A DNA stretch of 38,815 bases, taken from NCBI GenBank assembly GCA_020341735.1, contig CP070833.1:1504247-1543061 (forward strand), written 5' to 3'. The notes beneath the pieces were generated by a model, which worked only from the letters and a program-made list of their open reading frames with translations, was not told the origin of the DNA and searched no databases. Shown here in pieces: positions 4,648-22,023 of the stretch (the first letter of the stretch is position 1; every line of letters starts with the position of its first letter). The stretch is from Gammaproteobacteria bacterium (lineage in GTDB: Bacteria; Pseudomonadota; Gammaproteobacteria; Steroidobacterales; XN24). A program made the translations under genes and the position numbers.

Positions 4648-7003
<2,356 letters not shown>

Positions 7004-7183: not shown

Positions 7184-8140
7184 CTATACGATCTCTCTTC
7201 CCAGCAGGCGCGATTTTGCTTTGCGGGATACCCTGAACTTCACGTCCAGATATCGATAAAGGAACTCCGGAACATTGACTTCGCAGGTCGATTCCAGGCC
7301 TTCGAACCCGGGCGAGGAATTGACCTCGCAAATCCGGAACCCGACCTCTTCGTCATAGAGGAAGTCCAGTCCAGCCATGTCCATATCGAGGACATGCATG
7401 ACCTCAGCCACTGAGAGTGCATTGCGTGGACCTGTCTCGAATGGTTTGGCGGTACCGCCCTGAGAGTAGTTGGACTTGAAGCCGGATTTTGCTATCCGCT
7501 CCATCGCCGCGACGATGTGGCCGCCGATCGACAGGACCCTGACGTCTCGCCCGCGGCTTTCCGCCAAGAATTGTTGCAACACCAGTTGCGCCGCAGGGTT
7601 ATTGGCCTCGACGAACTGCAGTAGATCCAGCAGTTTTTCCCTGTCGTCGCACAAATAGACGCCGCTGCCCTGAGTACCGACAAGGGTTTTCACGACAACC
7701 GGAAATCCCATCTCGCGCTCAACGAAATCCGCGTCGATCGGGAATTTTACGAGGATTGTTTTCGGCACGGGAAGGCCCGCGCTGGCAAGGATCTGCAGGT
7801 GCAAGAGCTTGTCTTTGGCGAGTTCAACGGCGTCCGGTCCATTGACGCAGTAGACGCCCAGGTGTTCCAACTGACGCAGTACCGCCATGGCGAAGTAACC
7901 GGTTGTCGAACCCATGCGTGGAATGACGAAATCCGGTAGCTCAACTTTCTCTCCCTGGACGAATACGCCGTCTTCACCTTCCGAGTTGACCAGCAACTGT
8001 ACGTCGGCCGGATCCACGACGCGTACGTCGTAGCCATGTTCTGGCGCCGCCTCAACCAGCCTGTCGATTTCGTAATTTTCCTGCTTTACCAGAGACGGGT
8101 CCGGTCGATACAGGATCCAGCCGCTCGCCACATGCGCCAT
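7184..8140 (-). CDS. RimK-family ATP-grasp ligase (alpha-L-glutamate-ligase-like)
   Basis: An ATP-grasp enzyme of 318 residues that should join an amino acid, often glutamate, to a carboxylate through an acyl-phosphate. The N-terminal ~95 residues form the pre-ATP-grasp domain (WILYRPDPS, PDFVIPRMGSTTGYFAMAVL). Then come CVNGPDAVELAKDKLLHLQIL, the ATP-binding segment PVVVKTLVGTQGSGVYLCDD, VLQQFLAESRGRDVRVLSIG, and the metal-binding end GFRICEVNSSPGFEGLE. AAGGAG lies 9 bases before ATG 8140. It is downstream of the symporter fusion on the same strand with an 83-bp gap. The real acceptor could be ribosomal protein S6, another protein or a small molecule; the sequence does not say which. Compared with E. 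coli RimK it has a longer C-terminal tail rich in basic residues. Confidence 0.87.
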   Translation of the reverse strand: MAHVASGWILYRPDPSLVKQENYEIDRLVEAAPEHGYDVRVVDPADVQLLVNSEGEDGVFVQGEKVELPDFVIPRMGSTTGYFAMAVLRQLEHLGVYCVNGPDAVELAKDKLLHLQILASAGLPVPKTILVKFPIDADFVEREMGFPVVVKTLVGTQGSGVYLCDDREKLLDLLQFVEANNPAAQLVLQQFLAESRGRDVRVLSIGGHIVAAMERIAKSGFKSNYSQGGTAKPFETGPRNALSVAEVMHVLDMDMAGLDFLYDEEVGFRICEVNSSPGFEGLESTCEVNVPEFLYRYLDVKFRVSRKAKSRLLGREIV

Positions 8141-8223: not shown

Positions 8224-10422
8224 CTAATTATCAGACTGTGCCGCCTCGTCATCACGGCCGAAGCCAATCACATTTCTCAGGATAGACCACCTGGGCTCGC
8301 GATCATCGGCTTGCTTGCCCATGACCCAGTGGTCGAACAGCTTACTGACGTAGCCCGACTCCAGTTTGGTGGTGATCCAGCTGTCGACCAGGTTTAGCAG
8401 ATCGCCCTGCTGCCTTGGCATGGCGATAGCGGCAGGCATGCGGGAACTGAGCTCCGCGGGACGGGCAACCGCATACTGGGGAAATACAAGCGTCCAGGCG
8501 CCGCCGGCCTCCGCCGAAAAGAACACCGCGTCCATCTCGCTGATCTCGCCGCGAAGAAACTGCCGCGGGCTCTCTATCTGCTTTATTTGCGCGTCCGGCA
8601 GTATTCTGGTCAGCGGTTGCTCGAAGTATGGAGAGCTGGGCACACCTATAGTCAGGTCCTCTATTTTCCGCATCTTTGCCAGGCTGCTATAGCGGTTCCG
8701 CTCGTGATCTTTCACCAGGAATCCCGCTGAGTGATAGGTGTAGGGTCGTGAGAAAGCGACCTCGATGACTTTCTCGGGCACAATCGTAAGCCCGCCTAAA
8801 ATCAGGTCGACCTCGCCGGAATTCAAGGCGCTGACGAACCCATCTCTATTCAGCCTGACGATGTCCAGCTTCAGGCCGAAATCCCTTGCAAAGGCGTGTG
8901 CCAGGTCCATGTCCATGCCGACAGTTTCGCCAAGATTATTTCGGTACGCATACGGTAACCGGTCGGGAAAGTAGCCGATTCGGATTACGCCGCGTTCCCT
9001 GATGACATCCAGTCGAGAACGACTGAGATCCGGACCCGATAGTGCGGGCGGGCGTTCTGTATCTCTGGTTTCGACTTGGACCGGATCACCGGTGAGTCGT
9101 TTGGAAACGAAGATATCCAGGCCTTCGTAGGTGTAGGGTATGGCAGCGGTTAATAGCAGTCCCAGGCCCGCCATAGTCACATAGAAGAACAGCAGGCCGA
9201 GCGCGGCGATCTGGATCAGCTTTCGCCATCTAAGGATGCCCAACATGGCGGTTGCTCCAAGGATCGCGATCACGACGCCATGCATCGCCGCCAGCCCGGT
9301 TGCGAGTCTGCCTGTGATGACGGCCCCCAGGAGATAGAGCTGAAACATATCGGCTGGAAGCTGGAAGACATCCAGCAAGAATGGTAGCGCCACAGCCATC
9401 TGCCCGAAGGCAGAGAACAGCCCCATCACCGAAAACTTTGGATATTGGTCCGGTGCCAGCGGAACACCGGTGAACCAGGCGGCGAAAAGGATGAAGCCGA
9501 GCCCCAGCAGCGTCCCGACGCTGGGAAAGCTGTACGCCGTGGGGACCAGGAGGTCAATCGCCGACCTCGCGTCGTCTGAGGGCAGCCGATGTTCGTCCAG
9601 TAAAGCCTTGCATCGTTCCGCCATCATCGGCAGCACGATGAGGACGGTCCCGGTCGCGATCGCCGTGATGAAGGGGGTCCTGACCGTCCGCATCACGTCC
9701 CTGGCGGAAAATGGGGTTGCCCAGGACACCAGCAACGGCAGTATCACGAATGTCAGTATCAGCCAGGCCCCTACATATGCCCACAGGTAGACCTGTAGTT
9801 TCTCCAGAGCCTCGGTTTGGATCGTCCCTGCCGCATTGGCGGCGATCGCAAATATCCCCAAGGGCGCCAGCCTTGCCACCCAGCTTGTTATTTTCATCAG
9901 TGTGGCGGTCAAGGTATCCAGACCGCGCAGCAGGCCAGACTTGTTTGGGACGGATATCAGAGCGGTACCCATCAGGATGCTGAACACAACAACCGCCGGA
10001 AGAATCGTGTTGGCCAGCGAGAAAAACGGGTTGGCTGGCAGGTACAAGAGCAGCGGGTCGAACTCGACCTGGGCACTCTGCGTCGTCGTGCTAAAGAAGG
10101 CAGCTGCCTCCCAATCAGGGTAGGCGAAGGGGAGAGCCAGTAGCCCGATCATCGCGATGACCCAGAGGAACAGGATCAGCATCCCGCCCTGAGAGCCGAT
10201 TTGCCGTGCATGAGACATGTCCAGCTTGCCTAATCCTCCGATGAGGGAAACCAGGACATAAGGGACGACCGTCATCTGCAGAAGGCGCACGTATGCATCG
10301 CCGAAAAGACCGAACACACCGGCATCCTCGCCAAAGAAGATACCGATGAAGAGGCCGAGGCTGAGTCCCCAGATGACCTGAGAAAAGGCGCTCTTCGGGA
10401 ATAGGCGAAACCTGCGAGTCAT
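8224..10422 (-). CDS. DAACS-type symporter fused to a C-terminal family-3 solute-binding domain
   Basis: A 732-residue two-part transporter. Residues ~1-430 are a dicarboxylate/amino-acid:cation symporter fold (VIWGLSLGLFIGIFFGE, LLQMTVVPYVLVSLIGGLG, LPANPFFSLANTILPAVVV, RLAPLGIFAIAANAAGT). A further hydrophobic segment (LIQIAALGLLFFYVTMAGLG) follows the usual eight-helix core and would carry the tail to the periplasm. Residues ~470-700 are an SBP_bac_3 domain (RLDVIRERGVIRIGYFPDRLPYAYRN, GMDMDLAHAFARDFGL, GEVDLILGGLTIVPEK). The symporter half is atypical: the NMDGT motif region reads YSFPSVGTLLGLG, and the serine-rich hairpin reads FITAIATGTVLIVLP. The substrate cannot be inferred. The 130-bp gap upstream (10423-10552) should hold its promoter; I found no convincing boxes there. 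Confidence 0.88.
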   Translation of the reverse strand: MTRRFRLFPKSAFSQVIWGLSLGLFIGIFFGEDAGVFGLFGDAYVRLLQMTVVPYVLVSLIGGLGKLDMSHARQIGSQGGMLILFLWVIAMIGLLALPFAYPDWEAAAFFSTTTQSAQVEFDPLLLYLPANPFFSLANTILPAVVVFSILMGTALISVPNKSGLLRGLDTLTATLMKITSWVARLAPLGIFAIAANAAGTIQTEALEKLQVYLWAYVGAWLILTFVILPLLVSWATPFSARDVMRTVRTPFITAIATGTVLIVLPMMAERCKALLDEHRLPSDDARSAIDLLVPTAYSFPSVGTLLGLGFILFAAWFTGVPLAPDQYPKFSVMGLFSAFGQMAVALPFLLDVFQLPADMFQLYLLGAVITGRLATGLAAMHGVVIAILGATAMLGILRWRKLIQIAALGLLFFYVTMAGLGLLLTAAIPYTYEGLDIFVSKRLTGDPVQVETRDTERPPALSGPDLSRSRLDVIRERGVIRIGYFPDRLPYAYRNNLGETVGMDMDLAHAFARDFGLKLDIVRLNRDGFVSALNSGEVDLILGGLTIVPEKVIEVAFSRPYTYHSAGFLVKDHERNRYSSLAKMRKIEDLTIGVPSSPYFEQPLTRILPDAQIKQIESPRQFLRGEISEMDAVFFSAEAGGAWTLVFPQYAVARPAELSSRMPAAIAMPRQQGDLLNLVDSWITTKLESGYVSKLFDHWVMGKQADDREPRWSILRNVIGFGRDDEAAQSDN

Positions 10423-12750: not shown

Positions 12751-13302
12751 TCAATACATACCGGTTTGCAGGCGCGCAGCTTCAGACATCATGTCCTGAC
12801 GCCACGGCGGGTCGAAGACCAGTTCGACCGCCGCCCGCTTAACTTTCGGGATAATCTCGAGTTTGCTGCGAACGTCCAGCACCAGGATGTCTCCCATGCC
12901 GCACCCAGGCGCTGTCAGGGTCATGTCGACTTCGATGCGGTACTGTCCATCCTCCAGTTTGACGGTCTCGCATCGATAAATCAGACCCAGGTCAACGATA
13001 TTGATTGGAATCTCCGGGTCGAAGCAGGTTTTCATCTGCTCCCAGACGAGGTTTTCCAGATCTTCCCTCGACGCCTCAGGAGGAAGTTGAGGTGGCGGAA
13101 CCGGATCCTTGCCAAGCGCGTCGGCATTACCTCCGTCTATCCGAAACAGGCTGCCGTCGACGTAGACGGTAAAACTGCCGCCAAGGGCCTGGGTAATGAA
13201 CCCGTTAGTCCCCTTGCGAAGGATAACCTCATCTCCCGAAGGTATAAGTACTGCGGCGCAATTTCTGTATAGCTGAACAGGTTCGCTGTCACGACCAAAC
13301 AT
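12751..13302 (-). CDS. sufT: SufT, MIP18/DUF59-family Fe-S maturation protein
   Basis: SufT helps mature Fe-S proteins under high demand for clusters. This 183-residue version has an N-terminal extension of ~75 residues typical of SufT (VLIPSGDEVILRKGTNGFITQ, GGSFTVYVDG), then the DUF59 domain (VWEQMKTCFDPEIPINIVDLGLIY). The signature region LTAPGCGMGDIL contains the conserved Cys, and the protein ends VFDPPWRQDMMSEAAR. It lies 16 bp after sufU and 12 bp before the Rieske gene on the same strand. Confidence 0.92.
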   Translation of the reverse strand: MFGRDSEPVQLYRNCAAVLIPSGDEVILRKGTNGFITQALGGSFTVYVDGSLFRIDGGNADALGKDPVPPPQLPPEASREDLENLVWEQMKTCFDPEIPINIVDLGLIYRCETVKLEDGQYRIEVDMTLTAPGCGMGDILVLDVRSKLEIIPKVKRAAVELVFDPPWRQDMMSEAARLQTGMY

Positions 13303-13318
13303 ACCAACGATCCCTCAA

Positions 13319-13765
13319 CTACTCAGTTGACACGGTGTCGCCGCCCGAGAGGGCGGATTTCATGGTGTGCCAGCAGAGGCTGGCACACTTAACCCGGGTC
13401 GGATATTGACGAACGCCTGACAATGCAGCGAGCTTGCCCAGTGATGCCAGGTCGCCCATGTCCGATTCGTTGCCCGTGAGCATTTCATGTATGCGCTCGA
13501 AGAGATCCAGCGCTTCCGTCTCGGTCTTGCCGTTCAGGAACTCGGTCATCATGGACGCCGATGCAACAGAGATCGCACAGCCCGAGCCCTCGAACGCCGC
13601 GTCTTCGATTCGGTCGTCGCTGACCCGCAGGTAGACGTGAAGCTTGTCGCCGCACAGCGGGTTGAGCCCTTCCGCCTCGCGCCTCGGCGGCTCGATCTGG
13701 CGAAAATTTCGCGGGCTGCGATTGTGATCCACGATTACGTCGCGGTATAGATCCTTCAGATCCAT
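13319..13765 (-). CDS. sufU: SufU/IscU-like Fe-S scaffold or sulfur-transfer protein
   Basis: This NifU_N-fold protein receives sulfur from SufS. Metal or cluster ligands are C38 (NPLCGD), C63 (GSGCAIS) and C127 (VKCASLCW), with an extra Cys at 131. The insertion between C63 and C127 is longer than in IscU, and the HSCA-binding LPPVK motif of IscU is absent. Both are SufU features. Length is 148. Its ATG shares a base with the sufS stop (TGATG at 13763-13767), so the partner proteins are translationally coupled. Confidence 0.94.
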   Translation of the reverse strand: MDLKDLYRDVIVDHNRSPRNFRQIEPPRREAEGLNPLCGDKLHVYLRVSDDRIEDAAFEGSGCAISVASASMMTEFLNGKTETEALDLFERIHEMLTGNESDMGDLASLGKLAALSGVRQYPTRVKCASLCWHTMKSALSGGDTVSTE

Positions 13766-15015
13766 CAGGCAAACATCTCCCTTGTCTTGACCAGGGCCTC
13801 CGCCAGACGGTCTGCTTCTTCCTCCGTGTTGTAGAAGGCAAACGAAGCTCGCGCCGTCGCGGGCACCCCGAAATACTCCATGACCGGCATGGCGCAGTGA
13901 TGCCCTGTCCGAATCGCAATCCCTTCGTGATCGACGATCGTTCCGATGTCGTGTGGATGGATGCCTTCGAGGATAAACGAGATGACGGCCGCCTTGCCGG
14001 GCGCAGTGCCTATGATTCTAAGCCCCGGAACTTCTTCCAGAACACGGGTTGCGTGCTCTAACAGGGTCGCCTCGCGGCGGGCGATGTTGGACATGCCCAC
14101 GCTATCCAGGTAATCCACGGCCGCACCCAAGCCTACGGCACCGGCAATATTCGGTGTGCCAGCCTCAAATTTCCACGGCAGCTCGTTATACACAGTTTCG
14201 TCGAAACCCACGGCCAGAATCATGTCGCCGCCGCCTTGCCACGGTGGCATGTCCGCCAGTATCGATTCCCGCCCATACAACACACCGATGCCGGTAGGGC
14301 CGAACATCTTGTGCCCGGAGAACGCGTAAAAATCACAGTCCAGGTCCTGGACATCGACTGTCATGTGAGGGACTGCCTGGGCACCGTCGAGGAGAACGGG
14401 TACGCCACGCTCCTTCGCCATCGCTATCACGTGGTGAACGGGATTGACCGTCCCGAGCGCGTTTGAGACATGCCCGAGCGCGACAAGCCGTGTCTTAGGG
14501 CCAAGCAGGCGTTCAAACTCGTCTAGCCGGATCTGTCCGGTATCGTCCATCGGCGTCACAACCAGCCTGGCGCCGGTCTGTTCGCACACGATCTGCCACG
14601 GGACGATGTTGGCATGATGCTCCAACCAGGTGATAAGGATTTCATCTCCTTCGCCAAGGCGAGGCCGCCCCCAGCTCTGGGCGACGAGATTGATGGCTTC
14701 AGTCGTGCCGCGTGTCCATATGATTTCCTTGTCAGATCTGGCGTTGATAAACCTCCTGACTTTGGTTCGGGCACCTTCGAATGCGTCCGTCGCTCTCTGA
14801 CTCAGCGTGTGAACCCCGCGATGTACATTCGCGTGATCACTACCGTAGTAGTGGCTGACTGCGTCTATCACCTGACGCGGTCGCTGCGCGGAAGCCGCGT
14901 TATCCAGATAGGCCAGCGGTCGGCCGTTGACCTCCTGGTGCAGAATAGGGAAATCTGCGCGTAAGGCATCGATGTCCAGATCGGTCGTCAGAACGGTATC
15001 CGGGTTTGCGCTCAC
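13765..15015 (-). CDS. sufS: Cysteine desulfurase SufS
   Basis: A PLP enzyme that takes sulfur from cysteine as an enzyme persulfide for cluster assembly. In the 416-residue product, the PLP lysine is K236 (YAFSGHKMFGPTG) and the catalytic cysteine is C374 (IRTGHHCAMPVM) in the short loop typical of group II desulfurases. Other family motifs are YLDNAASAQRP, RGTTEAINLVA and WLEHHANIVPW. It starts at GTG 15015, which overlaps the sufD stop by 4 bp (15012-15015). Confidence 0.96.
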   Translation of the reverse strand: MSANPDTVLTTDLDIDALRADFPILHQEVNGRPLAYLDNAASAQRPRQVIDAVSHYYGSDHANVHRGVHTLSQRATDAFEGARTKVRRFINARSDKEIIWTRGTTEAINLVAQSWGRPRLGEGDEILITWLEHHANIVPWQIVCEQTGARLVVTPMDDTGQIRLDEFERLLGPKTRLVALGHVSNALGTVNPVHHVIAMAKERGVPVLLDGAQAVPHMTVDVQDLDCDFYAFSGHKMFGPTGIGVLYGRESILADMPPWQGGGDMILAVGFDETVYNELPWKFEAGTPNIAGAVGLGAAVDYLDSVGMSNIARREATLLEHATRVLEEVPGLRIIGTAPGKAAVISFILEGIHPHDIGTIVDHEGIAIRTGHHCAMPVMEYFGVPATARASFAFYNTEEEADRLAEALVKTREMFA

Positions 15016-16376
15016 CTTTCAGCTCCCAGGTTTTCTTGAATGAGTCGGTCGTCCGCCAATACTCCGGCCAGATGACGCTCGAGCCTGCGCCGGAAAGCAG
15101 CCAATGGCATGCGCTTGGCGACGATCTCCGCAAACGCGAACGTGAGCAGGTCGTGAGCGATGTCCGGAGCGATGCCGCGGGAGAGGAGGTAGAACAGCGC
15201 GTCTGCGTCGAGTTGGCCGACAGTGGCGCCATGGCTGCACTTGACGTCGTCCGCGTAGATTTCCAGTTCGGGTTTGGTATCGATCTCGGCCTCCGGCGAA
15301 AGCAAGAGGTTGTCATTCGACTGATGAGCCTCGATTTTCTGTGCATCGGGATGCACGATGGCCTTGCCATTGAATACCGCACGGCCGTGATCCCCGACGA
15401 TCCCCCGATACACTTCGTTACTGAGAGTGTGCGGTGCGAAATGATCCACACGGGTTTGATTGTCCACGTGGCGCCGCCCATCCACGCAGTAAAGACCGTT
15501 CATCACGGTTTCCGCACCGCTGTCCAATAGATGAATTCCGATGTCCAGCCGGGCGAGGGTTCCACCAAGATGGACATTGTGAGTCGCAAGTTGGGCGTCT
15601 CGCAGCAGCTTGGCGTGCAGGCCCCCAATATGGAAAGTATTCGCCGTCTCCTCCTGCAAGCGGTAATGATCGACCCTGGCCGCCGGCCCGAGTGAGATCT
15701 CCGTCACCGCGTTGGTCAAGTTGGCGGTATTGCCGAACCCCACGTAGTGCTCGACCACGGTCAACTGACTGCCATCGGTGGCGTCTACGAATACTCTCGG
15801 ATGAGCCGCTACCGGTTCGCCGCCCGGTACCGAGAGGAAAAGCAGGTACACGGATCGATCGTGGGCCCTGCCAGGTACCGTTCGTATCACGATACCGTCA
15901 CGCAGGAAGGCCTGATTCAGTGCGACGAACGGATGCTGCCCGATGGCCGCCACCGTGCCGATCGGGTGCGCATCCGAGCTTTCATGATCGTCGAGGTATG
16001 ACGCCATCGGGCGGGCGATGATGCCGTCCATGTTGGTCAGGTCAGAAAGCCCTGGTTCAAGCCGGCCATTCAGGAATACGATGCAGGCGGCATCCAGCCC
16101 ATCCACAGATACCGCCGCGACTTGCTTCGGACTGGGTGCCTCTGCGGGCCCTGCCGGTCGGAAGGCGTGGCGAGCAAGCTTTCGCAGTGACGTGTATTTC
16201 CAGGCCTCGTCCCGGGTCGTCGGCAGCCCGGTGCCCGTGAACGCTTCGAAACCGGCCCGCCGAAGCGCCGTCGCGGCGTCGTTACCGGCGCCCAGGTCCG
16301 ACCAGGCAGCGCTGAAGGCGTCCAGGGCGGCCTCCCGGCGTCCGGGACGTTTGCTCTTTTGAATCGCCGAGCTCAT
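15012..16376 (-). CDS. sufD: SufD subunit of the SufBCD scaffold
   Basis: SufD pairs with SufB and the SufC ATPase to build Fe-S clusters. The 454-residue protein has the helical N-terminal domain with the [14 protein letters not shown] motif and a C-terminal beta-helix. That ends in [25 protein letters not shown], which holds the Cys and His equivalent to those at the SufB-SufD cluster interface in E. coli. [19 protein letters not shown] is the other conserved stretch. It overlaps sufC (16373-16376) and sufS by 4 bp each. Confidence 0.95.
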
Positions 16377-17125
16377 GCGTTAGCGGCCTCCTGGACCCAG
16401 TCATAGCCACGTTCCTCCAGTTCGAGAGCCAGTGTCTTGTCGCCGGTCCGAACTATCTTTCCGCCCGATAGGACGTGGACGAAATCCGGCTCGATGTAGT
16501 CCAGCAGGCGTTGGTAATGAGTGACCAGGATGATGGCGCGATCCGGGCTACGGAGGCTGTTCACGCCAGCGGCGACGACTTTGAGTGCATCTATGTCCAA
16601 GCCTGAGTCGGTTTCGTCCAGCACCGCGAGCCGCGGTTCCAGTACCGCCATCTGCAGAATCTCGTTTCTCTTTTTCTCGCCGCCGGAGAAGCCTTCGTTG
16701 ACACCGCGATTGAGGAAGCTCTCATCCATGTGCATGAGCCCCATCTTCTCCTTCACAACTGCCAGAAACTCGAACGCATCCAGTTCGGCTTCTCCACGAT
16801 GAGTCCGCACCGCATTGAGCGCTGCCTTGAGCAAGTAGGCGTTGTTCACCCCCGGAATCTCTACCGGGTACTGGAACGCCAGAAAGACGCCTTCCCGGGC
16901 TCGCTCTTCGGGAGCCATGTCTAACAAATCCTTTCCGACATAGGTGACCGAGCCAGAAGTAACCTCGTACCCGTCACGCCCCGCCAGAACGTTGGCGAGC
17001 GTGCTTTTTCCGGATCCGTTCGGGCCCATGATTGCGTGGACCTCGCCGGGATTAACGTCCAGGCTGAGGCCGTTCAGAATCGGCCTTTCATCTACCCGCG
17101 CGTGCAGATCTTGGATGCTTAGCAT
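16373..17125 (-). CDS. sufC: SufC ATPase of the SufBCD complex
   Basis: A cytoplasmic ABC-type ATPase of 250 residues that drives SufBCD without a membrane partner. Walker A is [16 protein letters not shown], the signature is [13 protein letters not shown] (the Suf-type variant), and Walker B is [16 protein letters not shown]. It lies 38 bp after sufB, the widest gap inside the suf block, and overlaps sufD by 4 bp. Confidence 0.96.
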
Positions 17126-17163
17126 TTATCGTGTTCCTGATTTGAATGACGGATGAGCGGGAC

Positions 17164-18612
17164 TCAGCCAACGGCGCCCTCCAGGCTGACGCTGAGCAAA
17201 TTCTGGGCCTCGACCGCAAACTCCATCGGCAATTCCCGGAATACGTCCTTACAGAAGCCATTGACAATCATGTTCACAGCATCCTCTTCGGAAATGCCAC
17301 GCTGGAGGCAGTAGAACAGCTGGTCTTCTCCGATTTTTGACGTCGTCGCTTCGTGCTCGACCTTCGCGCTCGGGTTTTTCACCTCAACGTATGGGAAAGT
17401 GTGGGCACCACACCGGTCGCCCATCAGCAGGGAGTCGCATTGTGTGTGATTGCGTGCTCCGTGCGCTCCCGGCAATACCTTGACCAGTCCCCGATATGCA
17501 CTTTGAGCCCGACCGGCGGAAATGCCTTTCGACACGATTGTGCTGCGCGTATTGCGGCCGATGTGAATCATCTTGGTCCCGGTATCGGCCTGCTGCAGAT
17601 TGTTGGTCACCGCGACCGAGTAAAATTCGCCGATCGACTCGGCTCCGCGGAGGATGCAGCTCGGATATTTCCAGGTGATGGCGGAACCGGTTTCTACCTG
17701 CGTCCAGGAGATCTTCGATCGATCACCGCGACAGTCGCCACGCTTCGTGACGAAGTTGTAGATGCCGCCCACGCCGTTCTCGTCGCCTGGATACCAGTTC
17801 TGAACTGTCGAGTACTTGATCTCCGCGTCTTCCATCGCTACGAGTTCGACAACCGCGGCGTGCAGCTGGTTTTCATCTCGCATCGGGGCCGTACACCCCT
17901 CCAAGTAGCTTACATGGCTACCTTCGTCCGCCACGATCAGTGTTCGTTCAAACTGACCGGTATTGGCCGCATTGATCCTGAAATAGGTGGATAGCTCCAT
18001 CGGACAACGCACACCCTTCGGTACGTAGACAAACGAACCATCGGTGAATACGGCCGAGTTCAGCGTGGCAAAAAAATTGTCTGTATACGGTACGACGCTG
18101 CCCAGGTAGGCCTCGATGAGCTCGGGGTGATTCTGCACGGCCTCCGAGAAAGAGCAGAAAACGACGCCAGCCTCCGCAAGCTTTTCCTTGAAGGTCGTGG
18201 CTACCGAGACACTGTCAAACACGGCATCGACCGCGACTCCAGCCAGAATGGCGCGCTCGTGCAGAGGAATTCCAAGCTTCTCGTAAGTCTCCAGCAATTT
18301 TGGATCGACTTCGTCAAGACTCTTGGGGGCATCTTCTTTCGACTTGGGGGCGGAGAAATAGGAGATGGCCTGGTAGTCGATTGGATCGTGATGAACATGC
18401 GCCCAACGCGGCTCCTGCATAGTCTGCCAATGTTCGAAAGCGCGTAATCGCCACTCGAGCAAGAAGCCCGGTTCCTTTTTCTTTCTGGAGATGAGCCGAA
18501 TGACGCTTTCGTCGAGTCCCGGGGGAACGGTATCTGCGTCGATATCGGTGACAAATCCGTGCTGATACTTCTTGCCGATGAAGTCTTCAACGTCGGGTGA
18601 TCTGGTAGACAT
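17164..18612 (-). CDS. sufB: SufB subunit of the SufBCD scaffold
   Basis: The core scaffold subunit for Fe-S assembly, 482 residues. Typical motifs: [19 protein letters not shown] at the N-terminus, [18 protein letters not shown], the persulfide-accepting Cys in [38 protein letters not shown], and the C-terminal [20 protein letters not shown] with the conserved His-Glu pair. The start ATG 18612 follows the regulator gene by 16 bp, so the regulator and suf genes form one unit. Confidence 0.97.
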
Positions 18613-18628
18613 TGCGGCTTACTCCAGC

Positions 18629-19111
18629 TCAGTGGCTTCCGTCTTTGCCCAGGTGTTGCTCTTCCGGCCTGACCGCACTGGTGAGGTCGATAAGGGGATA
18701 GTCCGTCCCTGTAGTGACGGTCAATTGGGCCAGGCTCACGTCCTTCAGGGCGCGCCTTATCGCCACATTGATGCGCTGCCACGCCGAGCCAACGAGACAC
18801 AGGGATTCGATTTCACAATTGCCGACGCCGTTACTGCAGACAGTGATGGCGACAGGACCCTCGAGAGCATCGATGACCTCCGCGGCAGAGATCTGATCAG
18901 CGGAGCGCGCCAGCTGGTAACCACCATGTGATCCCCGCACAGAGGTCACTAGCCCCGCCTTGCCGAGTATCTTCAGGAGCTTGCTCGCCGTCGGGACGCC
19001 AAGGCCTGTTCTGCCGGCGATGTCGGCAGCGGTCTGTAGTTCGTCACCCGTGCCGGAAAGGTGGGCGAGGATAAGCGTCCCGTAGTCTGTCAGCTTGCTC
19101 ATACGGAGCAT
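18629..19111 (-). CDS. Rrf2-family Suf operon regulator (IscR-like, Fe-S binding)
   Basis: A winged-helix repressor or sensor of the Rrf2 family that should couple suf expression to Fe-S status. The start is ATG 19111, because GGGAGGG lies 7 bases upstream; the ATG at 19141 would add ten residues and lacks a site. In the 160-residue product the helix-turn-helix is near residues 25-60 (TAADIAGRTGLGVPTASKLL), followed by the wing GLVTSVRGSHGGYQLARS. Three cysteines, C92, C99 and C105 (VCSNGVGNCEIESLC), match the cluster ligands of IscR (92, 98, 104). It is the first gene of the suf unit and probably represses itself. Confidence 0.93.
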   Translation of the reverse strand: MLRMSKLTDYGTLILAHLSGTGDELQTAADIAGRTGLGVPTASKLLKILGKAGLVTSVRGSHGGYQLARSADQISAAEVIDALEGPVAITVCSNGVGNCEIESLCLVGSAWQRINVAIRRALKDVSLAQLTVTTGTDYPLIDLTSAVRPEEQHLGKDGSH

Positions 19112-19134
19112 TTTGATTCCCTCCCGATTAATTC

Positions 19135-19150
19135 GGACCATTTTAGTACC
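19135..19150. promoter_or_regulatory. Candidate IscR-type operator/promoter of the suf unit
   Basis: GGACCATTTTAGTACC resembles the core of the type-1 IscR site (YGACTRWWWYAGTCR); I count 11 of 15 positions. It lies 24 bp upstream of the regulator ATG. Its middle contains TAAAAT on the minus strand (19140-19145), a possible -10 box, so a bound regulator would block transcription. The remainder of the 168-bp divergent gap to mlaF (19112-19279) also contains GTGC/GCAC arms near 19178-19193, of unknown meaning. Confidence 0.45.
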
Positions 19151-19279
19151 TTTTGCGCCGCGAGAAAAGAGCTTGGAGTGCTCATAAGTGCACGGGCGGC
19201 TTCTCTACTGGCGGTATCCCTGCCTAATTGTGCTAGCATCCCTCAGCACGCCAAGGCCATTAGATTCGGGGGGAGGTCG

Positions 19280-20131
19280 ATGGCAGCCAGGGAAGAAAAG
19301 GGCGTTCTAAAATCCGATTCTCGCGGATCGGAAGACAATATCGTGGTCATCCGCGATCTTCATTATTCCAGAGGGCACCGGAAGATTTACGAGGGTCTCA
19401 ATCTCGAGATTCCGCGCGGCCGCGTTACCGCCATCATGGGGCCTAGCGGGACCGGTAAGACGACGATGCTTCGACTGATTACAGGGCAGATCCTGCCGGA
19501 TAGCGGCAGCATCCTGATCGAGGGACAGGATGTTGCCAAGATGCGCCGAAAGCAGCTATACGAGTATCGCAAGCGCATCGGCATGCTGTTCCAGAATGGC
19601 GCGTTGCTCACTGACATCAACGTCTACGAGAATGTGGCGTTCCCCTTGCGGGAGCACACCGATCTGCCGGAGCGGCTGATAAGGCATATCGTTCTTACGA
19701 AATTACACGCCGTGGGTCTGCGGGGGGCATGGCACATGATGCCCTCGGAGCTTTCCGGCGGCATGGCGAGACGGGTGGCTCTCGCCCGTGCAATCGCAAT
19801 GGATCCGGATCTGATCCTCTACGACGAACCATTCGTCGGGTTGGACCCCATCTCCATGGGAGTGATCGTTCGACTCATACGGAGGATGAACGACGCCCTG
19901 GGGCTGACCAGCATTGTCGTCTCCCACGATGTGGATGAGATTTCGTCGATTTCGGATCGCACCTACCTCATCTCTGACGGACGCGTCGTCGCATCCGGTT
20001 CGCCAGAGGATCTGCAGGACAACTGCTCTGCAGTGGTGATGCAATTCATGAACGGCATGGCCGACGGACCGGTGCCTTTCCATTACCCTGCGCCCGATTA
20101 CGGGGAGCAACTCCTCGGTCGCGACAACTGA
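19280..20131 (+). CDS. mlaF: MlaF, ATPase of the Mla lipid transporter
   Basis: This cytoplasmic ABC ATPase powers phospholipid movement between the inner and outer membranes through MlaFEDB. The 283-residue product starts at ATG 19280, although the purine-rich GGGGGGAGG just before it is unusually close to the start. Walker A is GPSGTGKTTMLRL (K60), the signature is LSGGMARRVALARAIA, Walker B is LILYDEPFVGLDP, and the switch is VVSHDVDEI. An N-terminal extension of about 20 residues precedes the domain. mlaE follows after 13 bp. Confidence 0.94.
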   Translation: MAAREEKGVLKSDSRGSEDNIVVIRDLHYSRGHRKIYEGLNLEIPRGRVTAIMGPSGTGKTTMLRLITGQILPDSGSILIEGQDVAKMRRKQLYEYRKRIGMLFQNGALLTDINVYENVAFPLREHTDLPERLIRHIVLTKLHAVGLRGAWHMMPSELSGGMARRVALARAIAMDPDLILYDEPFVGLDPISMGVIVRLIRRMNDALGLTSIVVSHDVDEISSISDRTYLISDGRVVASGSPEDLQDNCSAVVMQFMNGMADGPVPFHYPAPDYGEQLLGRDN

Positions 20132-20144
20132 GGGAATCAGTGTC

Positions 20145-20927
20145 ATGAAGCGGGTCTTCCAGGACATCTGGTATTCCGTGCAGGATTTCCTGCAGACATT
20201 CGGTTCCAGCCAGTTGTTCCTGGTCCGGATTCTGGCCGGCGTCCCGGCGGCGTTTCTGCGACCTGGCTTGATCATTAAACAGATTCACGGCAGCGGCGTT
20301 TTGTCCCTGGCCATAATCGGCATCTCCGGGTTCTTCGTGGGCATGGTCCTGTCCCTGCAGGCTTACAACTCTCTCGCCCGATTCGGCGCGACTGAATCAC
20401 TTGGCGTTCTCGCTGCACTGGCCCTGACTCGCGAACTCGGCCCGGTTGTCACCGCGCTGCTTTTCGCTGGCCGCGCGGGCACAGCGCTGGCATCCGAAAT
20501 TGGCCTGATGCGAGCGACTGATCAGCTTTCCGGCATGGAGATGATGGCGGTAGATCCGGTCAGGCGGGTCGTCGTGCCGCGTTTTATCGGTGGCGTGATC
20601 GCCATGCCGCTACTTGCCGCCATCTTCAGCGCCATGGGACTGTTCGGCGCATGGCTGGAGGGCGTGATGCTGCTCGGCGTGGATGAGGGCGCCTTCTGGC
20701 AGCAGATGCGGAGCCAGGTCGACGTTTACGACGATGTGCTGGCTGGCATATTGAAAAGCTTCGTGTTCGGTATTGCCGCCAGTCTGCTGGCAGTATTCGA
20801 GGGATACAATTCCATACCGACTGCCGAGGGAGTCAGTCGCGCTACGACTCGGACAGTCGTCCTTACGGCGCTCGCCGTACTTGTCCTGAACTTTATGCTT
20901 ACAGCGGCGCTAATCGGAGAGGTGTAA
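20145..20927 (+). CDS. mlaE: MlaE, permease of the Mla lipid transporter
   Basis: Integral inner-membrane subunit of 260 residues with about five or six membrane helices. Recognisable MlaE stretches are FFVGMVLSLQAYNSLARFGA, LALTRELGPVVTALLFAGRAGTALASEIGLM and TDQLSGMEMMAVDPVRRVVVPR (contact with MlaF). The ATG at 20145 has GAGGG about 9 bases upstream. It lies between mlaF and mlaD with gaps of 13 and 2 bp. Confidence 0.95.
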   Translation: MKRVFQDIWYSVQDFLQTFGSSQLFLVRILAGVPAAFLRPGLIIKQIHGSGVLSLAIIGISGFFVGMVLSLQAYNSLARFGATESLGVLAALALTRELGPVVTALLFAGRAGTALASEIGLMRATDQLSGMEMMAVDPVRRVVVPRFIGGVIAMPLLAAIFSAMGLFGAWLEGVMLLGVDEGAFWQQMRSQVDVYDDVLAGILKSFVFGIAASLLAVFEGYNSIPTAEGVSRATTRTVVLTALAVLVLNFMLTAALIGEV

Positions 20928-20929
20928 CG

Positions 20930-21397
20930 ATGCAGCAGACACGCGCAGTGGAAATCGGCACCGGGCTATTCGTGTTCCTGGGTATCGTGGCCCTGTTCTT
21001 CCTGACGACTCGAGTGACCAATTTCGACAGTTACGAGGGCGATGAGGGATACACCCTGACCGCGAGGTTCGACAACATCGGTTCCCTGAAACTCAGATCG
21101 CCGGTCTCGATGTCGGGGGTAAAGGTCGGCAGGGTGAGCAGCATCATCTTCGACGACGAGATGCTTGAAGCGGTGGTCGAACTCAGGATCGACGCTCGTT
21201 ACAGCAAGATCCCCAATGATTCCGACGCCAGCATTCTTACTCAGGGTATCCTGGGTGGACAGTACGTCGGTCTCGAGCCCGGGGGCTCGGAAGAGTTTTT
21301 TGCCGATCAGGACGAGATCCAGTTCACGCAGTCGGCGCTGGTGCTGGAGAAGTTGGTAAGCAAGTATCTCTTCAGCCAAGGGGATAAGGAGGACTAG
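20930..21397 (+). CDS. mlaD: MlaD, MCE-domain lipid-binding subunit
   Basis: A single N-terminal membrane helix (EIGTGLFVFLGIVALFFLTT) holds one periplasmic MCE domain (YTLTARFDNIGSLKLRSPVSMSGVKVGRV). Six copies form a ring with a hydrophobic pore for lipids. The tail holds QGILGGQYVGLEPGG and a hydrophobic C-terminal helix region (ALVLEKLVSKYLF) typical of MlaD. Length is 155. It begins 2 bp after mlaE, so the pair are translationally coupled. Confidence 0.95.
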   Translation: MQQTRAVEIGTGLFVFLGIVALFFLTTRVTNFDSYEGDEGYTLTARFDNIGSLKLRSPVSMSGVKVGRVSSIIFDDEMLEAVVELRIDARYSKIPNDSDASILTQGILGGQYVGLEPGGSEEFFADQDEIQFTQSALVLEKLVSKYLFSQGDKED

Positions 21398-21402
21398 CAG
21401 CC

Positions 21403-22023
21403 ATGAACATGAGAGCGACTTTCCTGGCGTACCTGACCGCTGCGATACTGAGTTATGCCGCGGTAGCCTCTGCCACCGGCCCGGCAGAAGTTATCCAGGA
21501 AGCATCCACCTTGATGTTGGAGGCGTTGGCCGAAAAACGGGACCTGTTCTCGGAGGATCGGGATGCCCTCTATTCAGCCGTAGACGACATCCTGTTACCG
21601 CGATTTGACCAGCAGTACAGTGGCGGTCTGGTCATGGGCAAGTACTGGCGTAGGGCGACACCGGAACAACGACAGCGATTTATCACTGCACTGTATCGGT
21701 CACTACTTCAGACCTATGCCGAGGGGATTCTCGAATATCGCGGTGATCAACTCGAGGTCCTGCCCGTCGACGGGGATTTGTCCAAAGGCAAGGCTGTCGT
21801 GGAGACTCTGGTCACGCTGGAAACCGGTGTCGTCACTCCGGTGAACTACCGCATGCGGCTCACCGACGGGCAATGGAAGGCCTACGATGTGGTTATCGAA
21901 GGTATCTCTTACGTCAGTAATTATCGCAGCCAGTATGCCGGCGAGTTCCGCGCGAAAGGCATTGATACGGTCATCGAGGAACTTGAGGCGAAATCCGGCG
22001 ATGCTACCGGCGAAGAGCAATGA
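21403..22023 (+). CDS. mlaC: MlaC, periplasmic phospholipid-binding protein
   Basis: A soluble carrier of 206 residues that shuttles phospholipid between MlaA at the outer membrane and MlaD. It has a signal peptide (FLAYLTAAILSYAAVASA) and the MlaC fold: SAVDDILLPRFDQQYSGGLVMGKYWRRATPEQRQRFI, then YRMRLTDGQWKAYDVVIEGISYVSNYRSQY. AAGGAGG lies about 10 bases before ATG 21403; a second ATG is two codons later. The stop overlaps the mlaB ATG by 4 bp. Confidence 0.95.
   Translation: MNMRATFLAYLTAAILSYAAVASATGPAEVIQEASTLMLEALAEKRDLFSEDRDALYSAVDDILLPRFDQQYSGGLVMGKYWRRATPEQRQRFITALYRSLLQTYAEGILEYRGDQLEVLPVDGDLSKGKAVVETLVTLETGVVTPVNYRMRLTDGQWKAYDVVIEGISYVSNYRSQYAGEFRAKGIDTVIEELEAKSGDATGEEQ

Follow-up and report, generated by a model that had tools for sequence, protein, structure and literature searches.

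A Single Reading Frame Joins an SLC1-Type Carrier to a Family-3 Binding Domain

The window, by which we mean the whole 38,815-nt stretch of DNA that was analyzed, contains on its reverse strand a single unbroken ORF with an ATG start that encodes a 732-residue protein (Table 1). The original prediction, that this one gene encodes a DAACS-type transporter together with a family-3 solute-binding domain, is borne out by the Pfam scan, in which both domains lie far above their cut-offs: SDF (E 8e-50, cut-off 27.9 bits), which spans positions 4–383 of the 387-position profile, and SBP_bac_3 (E 6e-23, cut-off 26.4 bits). These two were the only domains found in the protein by that scan, with no TAXI, GltS, DctQM-type, or DctP domain.

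An AlphaFold monomer model was computed from a 52-row family alignment that held locus rows only, with two plasmid-derived rows left out. In this model, residues at about 8–396 are predicted to adopt the full SLC1 elevator fold with both hairpins, and structural alignment to ASCT2, EAAT3, GltPh, and GltTk supports this assignment (over ∼365 residues, Z is 36.8 to ASCT2 and 34 to GltPh). AncInt structures also rank among the nearest solved folds. The binding domain is predicted to fold over approximately residues 476–700. Its best Foldseek matches include the ancestral protein AncCDT-1 (5t0w, TMt 0.86) and a Trp-binding protein (9e2b, TMt 0.79); a family missing from the list of structural matches was not counted as evidence. 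The extra membrane segment suspected between the two domains is also recovered, as a Kyte–Doolittle peak at residues 405–423 and as a helix in the model, which we refer to as TM9. Past the binding domain lies a conserved C-terminal tail, in which residues 714–719 are modeled as helical.

Table 1. Features of the fusion gene and its downstream neighbor, in window coordinates
Feature	Position	Strand	Evidence
SDF–TM9–SBP_bac_3 fusion gene, 732 aa	8224..10422	-	Open ORF; two Pfam domains; AlphaFold mean pLDDT 88.8, pTM 0.85
SDF (SLC1/DAACS) domain, residues 15–388	9259..10380	-	PF00375, 170 bits; structural alignment Z 28–37
HP1 tip TGTVLIVLP, residues 257–265, in place of the serine-rich hairpin	9628..9654	-	HMMER and profile–profile alignments
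TM7 break PSVGT, residues 300–304, in place of NMDGT	9511..9525	-	HMMER and profile–profile alignments
TM8 residues 371–382, substrate/Na+ site region	9277..9312	-	Profile–profile alignment; structural end points agree
Ninth transmembrane helix (TM9), residues 399–427	9142..9228	-	AlphaFold helix; hydropathy peak; loop charge bias
Solute-binding domain, residues 480–700	8323..8985	-	PF00497, 81 bits; Foldseek matches
K551, alpha-carboxylate Arg position of amino-acid-binding proteins	8770..8772	-	Alignment to amino-acid-binding relatives
Residues 636–643 SAEAGGAW, alpha-amino Asp position now Ser	8494..8517	-	Alignment to amino-acid-binding relatives
Conserved C-terminal tail PRWSILRNVIG, residues 710–720	8263..8295	-	R711 49/54, W712 49/54, S713 47/54
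RimK-family ATP-grasp glutamate ligase, downstream, co-directional	7184..8140	-	TIGR00768, 217 bits, above cut-off

The Fusion Is a Dispersed Family Rather than a Chimera

A scan of genome contigs with the single sequence recovered no relatives of the fusion gene. When a five-row profile was run against 84,980 species genomes, 407 were found, and the analysis went on with the best 80, a choice that biases against highly divergent forms. Homologues with the same two-domain order, the first thing that the original prediction called for, are thus abundant: all of these best 80 match the query nearly end to end and in the same order. The fusion is also present, in that order, on two plasmids, and both Pfam domains were found in 52 of 52 family members scanned. 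Because the 80 full-length loci come from independent assemblies as well as isolate genomes, and because of the two plasmid genes and the invariable presence of both domains, a chimeric assembly or a chance fusion can be ruled out.

The hosts span at least seven phyla or classes and include Gammaproteobacteria (many of them Colwellia isolates), deltaproteobacterial lineages, Alphaproteobacteria, Verrucomicrobia/Opitutaceae, Acidobacteria, Bacteroidales, and Gemmatimonadota. Within evenly drawn samples the fusion was present in 10 of 369 genomes of the class and 6 of 398 genomes of the phylum. In the phylum sample, members of the family scored at least 498 bits, a value that even an SDF-only fragment reached, compared with 128 bits for the best stand-alone binding protein and ∼107 bits for the best stand-alone SDF protein. 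The divergent SDF type was never found without a binding domain in the sampled genomes, barring genes truncated at the end of a contig or by an N run.

The source genome itself carries one canonical SDF gene and two further paralogues of the fusion, each cut by an N run. These paralogues (L009, at C1 about 841,600, and L010, at C1 about 1,755,500) are close in sequence to each other; one is without its 3′ half and the other without its 5′ half, and the L010 match crosses an in-frame TAA. Gaps in the assembly of a duplicated gene may account for the N runs.

The Carrier Half Has Lost the Canonical SLC1 Ligands

The carrier half was aligned by profile–profile comparison (probability 100) to 21 stand-alone SDF proteins, namely 20 of the nearest by score and the canonical SDF protein of the source genome, and residue positions were taken from this alignment together with the points at which the structural alignments end. 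HMMER alignments to solved SLC1 structures put YSFPSVGT at the position of NMDGT and ATGTVLIVLP at the HP1 tip, and the profile alignment concurs. The absence of the NMDGT motif and of the serine-rich hairpin, both noted from the window alone, therefore holds, and the replacements are family-wide, with P-[SN]-x-G-[TK] at the NMDGT site and TG[TNS][VL] at the HP1 tip. GltPh residues D394, R397, N401, and D405 correspond to G371, A374, A378, and G382 in the window protein, while T398 is retained as T375. Each of D394, R397, T398, and N401 is present in 21 of 21 stand-alone proteins; the fusion family has G/A, A/G, T, and A at these columns, so that only T398 is kept, and it has no acid at column 405, where the stand-alone proteins have D/N. 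At columns 310–312 the stand-alone proteins show N/S, M/L, and D/N, compared with an invariant proline (P300, 54 of 54 representatives), mostly S/N, and then a variable residue in the fusion family. The TM3 columns near the Na3 ligands (GltPh T92/S93) are occupied by hydrophobic residues and a near-invariant Trp87. We considered whether R372, a conserved arginine of TM8, is the equivalent of GltPh R397 and rejected this, as the profile alignment and structural end points place R397 at A374, two residues beyond R372.

The family divides into two clades. In that of the window (44 loci) the motifs are TGTV and PSxGT, with Thr at residue 304; in the other (39 loci) TGN or TGS and PNxGK predominate, and 32 of the 39 have Lys304. 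This lysine of the PNxGK subfamily (for example L063, L067, L075, and L089) falls at the Thr314 position of NMDGT; in the pocket it might take the place of a sodium ion or interact with the carboxylate of a substrate.

In PMC12668577, Na+ coupling in SLC1 proteins is assigned the signature [S/T]92–93, N310, [M/S]311, [D/E]312, and [D/E]405, and H+ coupling a hydrophobic residue at 92, L311, and N405. The residues of both signatures are incomplete in the fusion family. We class the carrier half as an SLC1/SDF member by its predicted structure that, by its sequence, fails the SLC1/SDF functional signature. As D394, R397, N401, and the Na1/Na3 ligands are gone, a known SLC1 coupling mode is not to be assumed. 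The original proposal of a binding-protein-assisted secondary transporter is still the best reading of the data, but with these residues gone the word symporter calls for qualification. The cargo may even be quite different, or there may be none, given that the known substrate residues are absent.

Two alternatives concern the carrier half. The protein could be an ion-coupled symporter that has acquired new coupling residues, the binding domain merely raising affinity. H+ or Na+ coupling would then proceed through family-specific charges, D351, R372, and H381, and Lys304 in the other clade. D351 (49/54) and R372 (50/54) are indeed new conserved charges at columns that in stand-alone SDF proteins are mostly uncharged, occupied by small, polar, or hydrophobic residues; Lys304 is common in the second clade, and the best NCBIfam SDF match of the protein is DctA. 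However, neither known SLC1 signature, Na+ or H+ (PMC12668577), is present, and we regard this alternative as unlikely. The second alternative is a channel or uniporter for ions or small anions, built on the SLC1 scaffold and gated by the binding domain. In favor of this, the family has shortened HP2, which is the outer gate in SLC1 proteins, by about six residues, and SLC1 proteins are known to show anion conductance. But the amino-acid enzymes encoded nearby (see below) indicate a metabolite and nothing else hints at a channel, which makes it quite improbable.

The Transport Core Is under Constraint and the Binding Domain Is Predicted To Be Periplasmic

A further possibility was that the SDF half has degenerated and no longer functions. 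This was rejected: HP1, TM7, HP2, and TM8, with mean column conservation of 0.47–0.54 compared with 0.39 for the binding domain and 0.25 for TM9, are among the best conserved regions, and dN/dS is lowest in HP1–TM8 for most of the 13 close pairs that were compared. In pairs with informative synonymous change, these values are ∼0.01–0.13, below those of the binding domain (∼0.07–0.30) in most pairs; for one very close pair, nearly without synonymous change, dN/dS is uninformative. Because the transport core is usually under the strongest purifying selection, the carrier half reads as a functioning variant and not a relic. Pairwise distances of the carrier and binding halves are correlated (r = 0.70), as shared descent alone would also make them.

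In SLC1 proteins the eight-helix unit has both termini in the cytoplasm. Among 54 representatives of the family, the N terminus carries a mean of 2.5 Lys/Arg compared with 0.2 Asp/Glu and the TM8–TM9 loop 2.6 compared with 0.09, charges typical of the cytoplasmic side, whereas the segment past TM9 carries 1.4 Lys/Arg and 2.2 Asp/Glu. Together, the SLC1 topology, the additional helix, and the charge bias lead to the prediction that TM9 carries the chain across the membrane and that the binding domain is periplasmic. The periplasmic location first proposed is thereby favored, the loop charges agreeing with TM9, and the cytoplasmic topology that would have spoken against it is not what is predicted.

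Most Family Members Keep the Carboxylate Arginine but Not the Alpha-Amino Aspartate

Positions that contact the ligand carboxylate and alpha-amino group were assigned from the known contact residues of GlnBP and HisJ. The Arg/Asp pair of amino-acid-binding proteins, a check that the original prediction had proposed, is absent from the window protein, which has K551 and S636 instead. Across the family the outcome is divided: the arginine that binds the backbone carboxylate is kept in 40 of 54 members, whereas the aspartate position is Ser/Thr in 42 of 54. Two other residues of the domain are near-invariant, E638 (53/54) and W643 (52/54). Judged from these residues, an N-blocked or amide-type ligand would fit a pocket that still contacts the carboxylate and lacks the customary contact to the alpha-amino group, although loss of the aspartate is compatible with several ligand classes.

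Since AncCDT-1 and AncCDT-3, ancestral forms of cyclohexadienyl dehydratase, are the closest solved folds, the domain could instead be a tethered periplasmic enzyme such as that dehydratase. AncCDT-1 is, however, titled an amino-acid-binding protein, the precursor of the dehydratase; Trp-, Arg-, and Gln-binding proteins match about equally well, and in the alignment E638 and the Glu in the TVEALYY motif of the dehydratase are offset by one residue. An enzymatic role is, in our judgment, very improbable.

Genes for Glutamate-Bond Enzymes Often Follow the Fusion in the Clade of the Window

The gene that follows the fusion in the window encodes a RimK-family ligase (Table 1), and the 83-bp gap between the two contains an AAGGAG ribosome-binding site. 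In a relative of the same family, a RimK-like gene in the same order overlaps the stop codon of the fusion. The ligase is not a universal partner, as it adjoins only these two family members. More generally, glutamate-bond enzymes that are unrelated to one another are encoded downstream of the fusion in 29 of the 44 members of the window's clade, 12 of them co-directional, and none was found upstream within up to 6 kb in these 44; such counts are lower bounds, as many contigs end close to the fusion gene. N-formylglutamate amidohydrolase (FGase) family genes account for 6 co-directional cases, which overlap or abut the fusion, and 17 convergent ones, three of them ∼1.9 kb away, while EgtC-like class-II amidotransferase genes follow co-directionally in 4, with gaps of 13–118 bp. 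The EgtC-like neighbors (L018 8158–8988 and L006 3759–4589) score 172–175 bits, and because this falls below the EgtC cut-off of 218.7 they are probably a related gamma-glutamyl enzyme, not EgtC itself. The tree unites the co-directional FGase members in a single clade, puts the convergent FGase members inside another, and requires at least three changes for the amidotransferase neighbor; given these separate positions, distinct arrangements appear to converge on glutamate-bond chemistry. Among the kept loci outside the window's clade, no common recognized neighbor was found.

Sensor and response-regulator genes are encoded near some Colwellia loci; they were examined as partners of the fusion there and rejected, their position not being fixed. 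They are nonetheless one reason to consider a receptor or transceptor, in which the elevator scaffold would now serve as a ligand-gated sensor and relay its signal across the membrane to a partner. Family-3 binding domains act as sensors in other systems, and nearly all canonical transport contacts are lost here. Yet the Pfam scan found no cytoplasmic output domain in the fusion protein, the neighbors that do hold a position are metabolic enzymes and not regulators, and the moving transport core (HP1, TM7, HP2, and TM8) is usually the most constrained part. A signaling role therefore strikes us as improbable. An amino-acid ABC permease or ATPase partner is likewise absent among the nearest genes, the ABC ATPases of the window belonging with SufBD and Mla.

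A Candidate Single-Chain, Binding-Protein-Assisted Elevator Importer

The explanation that we favor, and to which we would give an even chance, is a single-chain elevator importer that is assisted by its own binding protein and works without canonical Na+ coupling. The SDF half would supply the SLC1 scaffold and transport domain, presumably as a trimer like its relatives, with TM9 returning the chain to the periplasm and tethering one family-3 binding domain per protomer. The binding domain would catch a scarce solute and pass it to the transport domain, which would move it inward by an elevator movement. As the canonical Na+ and amino-acid contacts are replaced family-wide, the known SLC1 Na+ sites are not the driver; direction may come instead from delivery by the tethered domain together with metabolic consumption by the neighboring enzyme. 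Coupling would then not be of the known Na+/H+ type and may be absent, with metabolic pull, or may depend on new residues. The substrate is probably a glutamate-derived carboxylate, possibly one without a free alpha-amino group. The analysis itself establishes the domains and their order, the fold prediction, the conservation, the residue replacements, the selection, and the neighbors; we infer the trimer, the periplasmic hand-over, transport itself, the coupling mode, and the substrate. More tentatively, the family could be a natural, conserved, and possibly ion-independent SLC1 lineage that links uptake of a glutamate derivative to an adjacent enzyme. Counting against the importer are the confinement of the enzyme neighbors to one clade, the origin of most FGase cases in two shared arrangements, and the fact that the window's RimK-like neighbor is common to only one other locus.

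Family-3 binding proteins normally feed pumps unrelated to SLC1. Compared with those that serve ABC importers (HisJ, GlnH, ArgBP), the fused domain shares the family, the fold, and in most members the carboxylate arginine, but it is membrane-tethered to an SDF carrier, has no ABC partner nearby, has its alpha-amino Asp replaced, and has gained the near-invariant E638/W643. Its carrier resembles DAACS/SLC1 proteins (GltPh, GltTk, DctA, ASCT2, EAATs) in the predicted HP1, HP2, broken TM7, and TM8, and differs from them in the replaced Na+/substrate residues, the shorter HP2, and the extra TM9 and binding domain. TRAP systems (DctPQM, SiaPQM) likewise combine a binding protein with an elevator membrane part, but both components belong to unrelated families. 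A close parallel is TAXI–GltS (PMC12344293), an elevator-type secondary carrier that belongs to neither TRAP nor TTT and works with a periplasmic binding protein, to which it is fused in Lachnospiraceae. There, however, the binding protein is TAXI rather than family 3, the carrier is GltS, a Na+ symporter, rather than SDF, and the order of fusion is reversed; only 14 such fusions are in InterPro (PMC12344293). The binding-protein-assisted principle is thus known to exist from TRAP, TTT, and the TAXI–GltS fusions, and we class the present family among candidate binding-protein-dependent secondary transporters.

PMC12668577 also describes uncoupled SLC1 transporters (AncInt and the Ext-Int clade), whose genes lie beside amino-acid enzymes, the same kind of pairing as seen for the fusion, and whose extant members, like it, lack a complete Na+ or H+ signature. 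AncInt, as described there, keeps the Na+-binding residues and binds aspartate, whereas the fusion family is without those contacts and R397, and a fused binding domain was not found in the passages of that paper that were consulted.

No description of an SDF/SBP_bac_3 fusion was found among 5.39 million open-access papers. Although any Pfam scan would reveal the two domains together, this looks like a little-studied importer class, concealed by current annotation: one family member is labeled "cation:dicarboxylase symporter family transporter." Before 2025, TRAP and TTT were the only secondary transporters known with a soluble binding protein, and the TAXI–GltS report called for more classes that could show whether the elevator mechanism permits the use of binding proteins (PMC12344293). 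The fusion family would be such a class on the well-understood SLC1 elevator fold, for which candidate homologues are numerous and some hosts (Colwellia) are in culture. It would further offer a natural experiment on SLC1 function without sodium sites, complementing the ancestral-protein work (PMC12668577).

Other Genes of the Window

On the same strand, at 4648–6903, the window encodes a KatG-family catalase-peroxidase (1283 bits) whose N terminus has an apparent signal sequence, which suggests that the protein is possibly exported to the periplasm. The interval 12751–22023 is ordinary: it contains a SUF iron–sulfur assembly cluster and its Rrf2 regulator, after which come Mla phospholipid-transport genes on the other strand.
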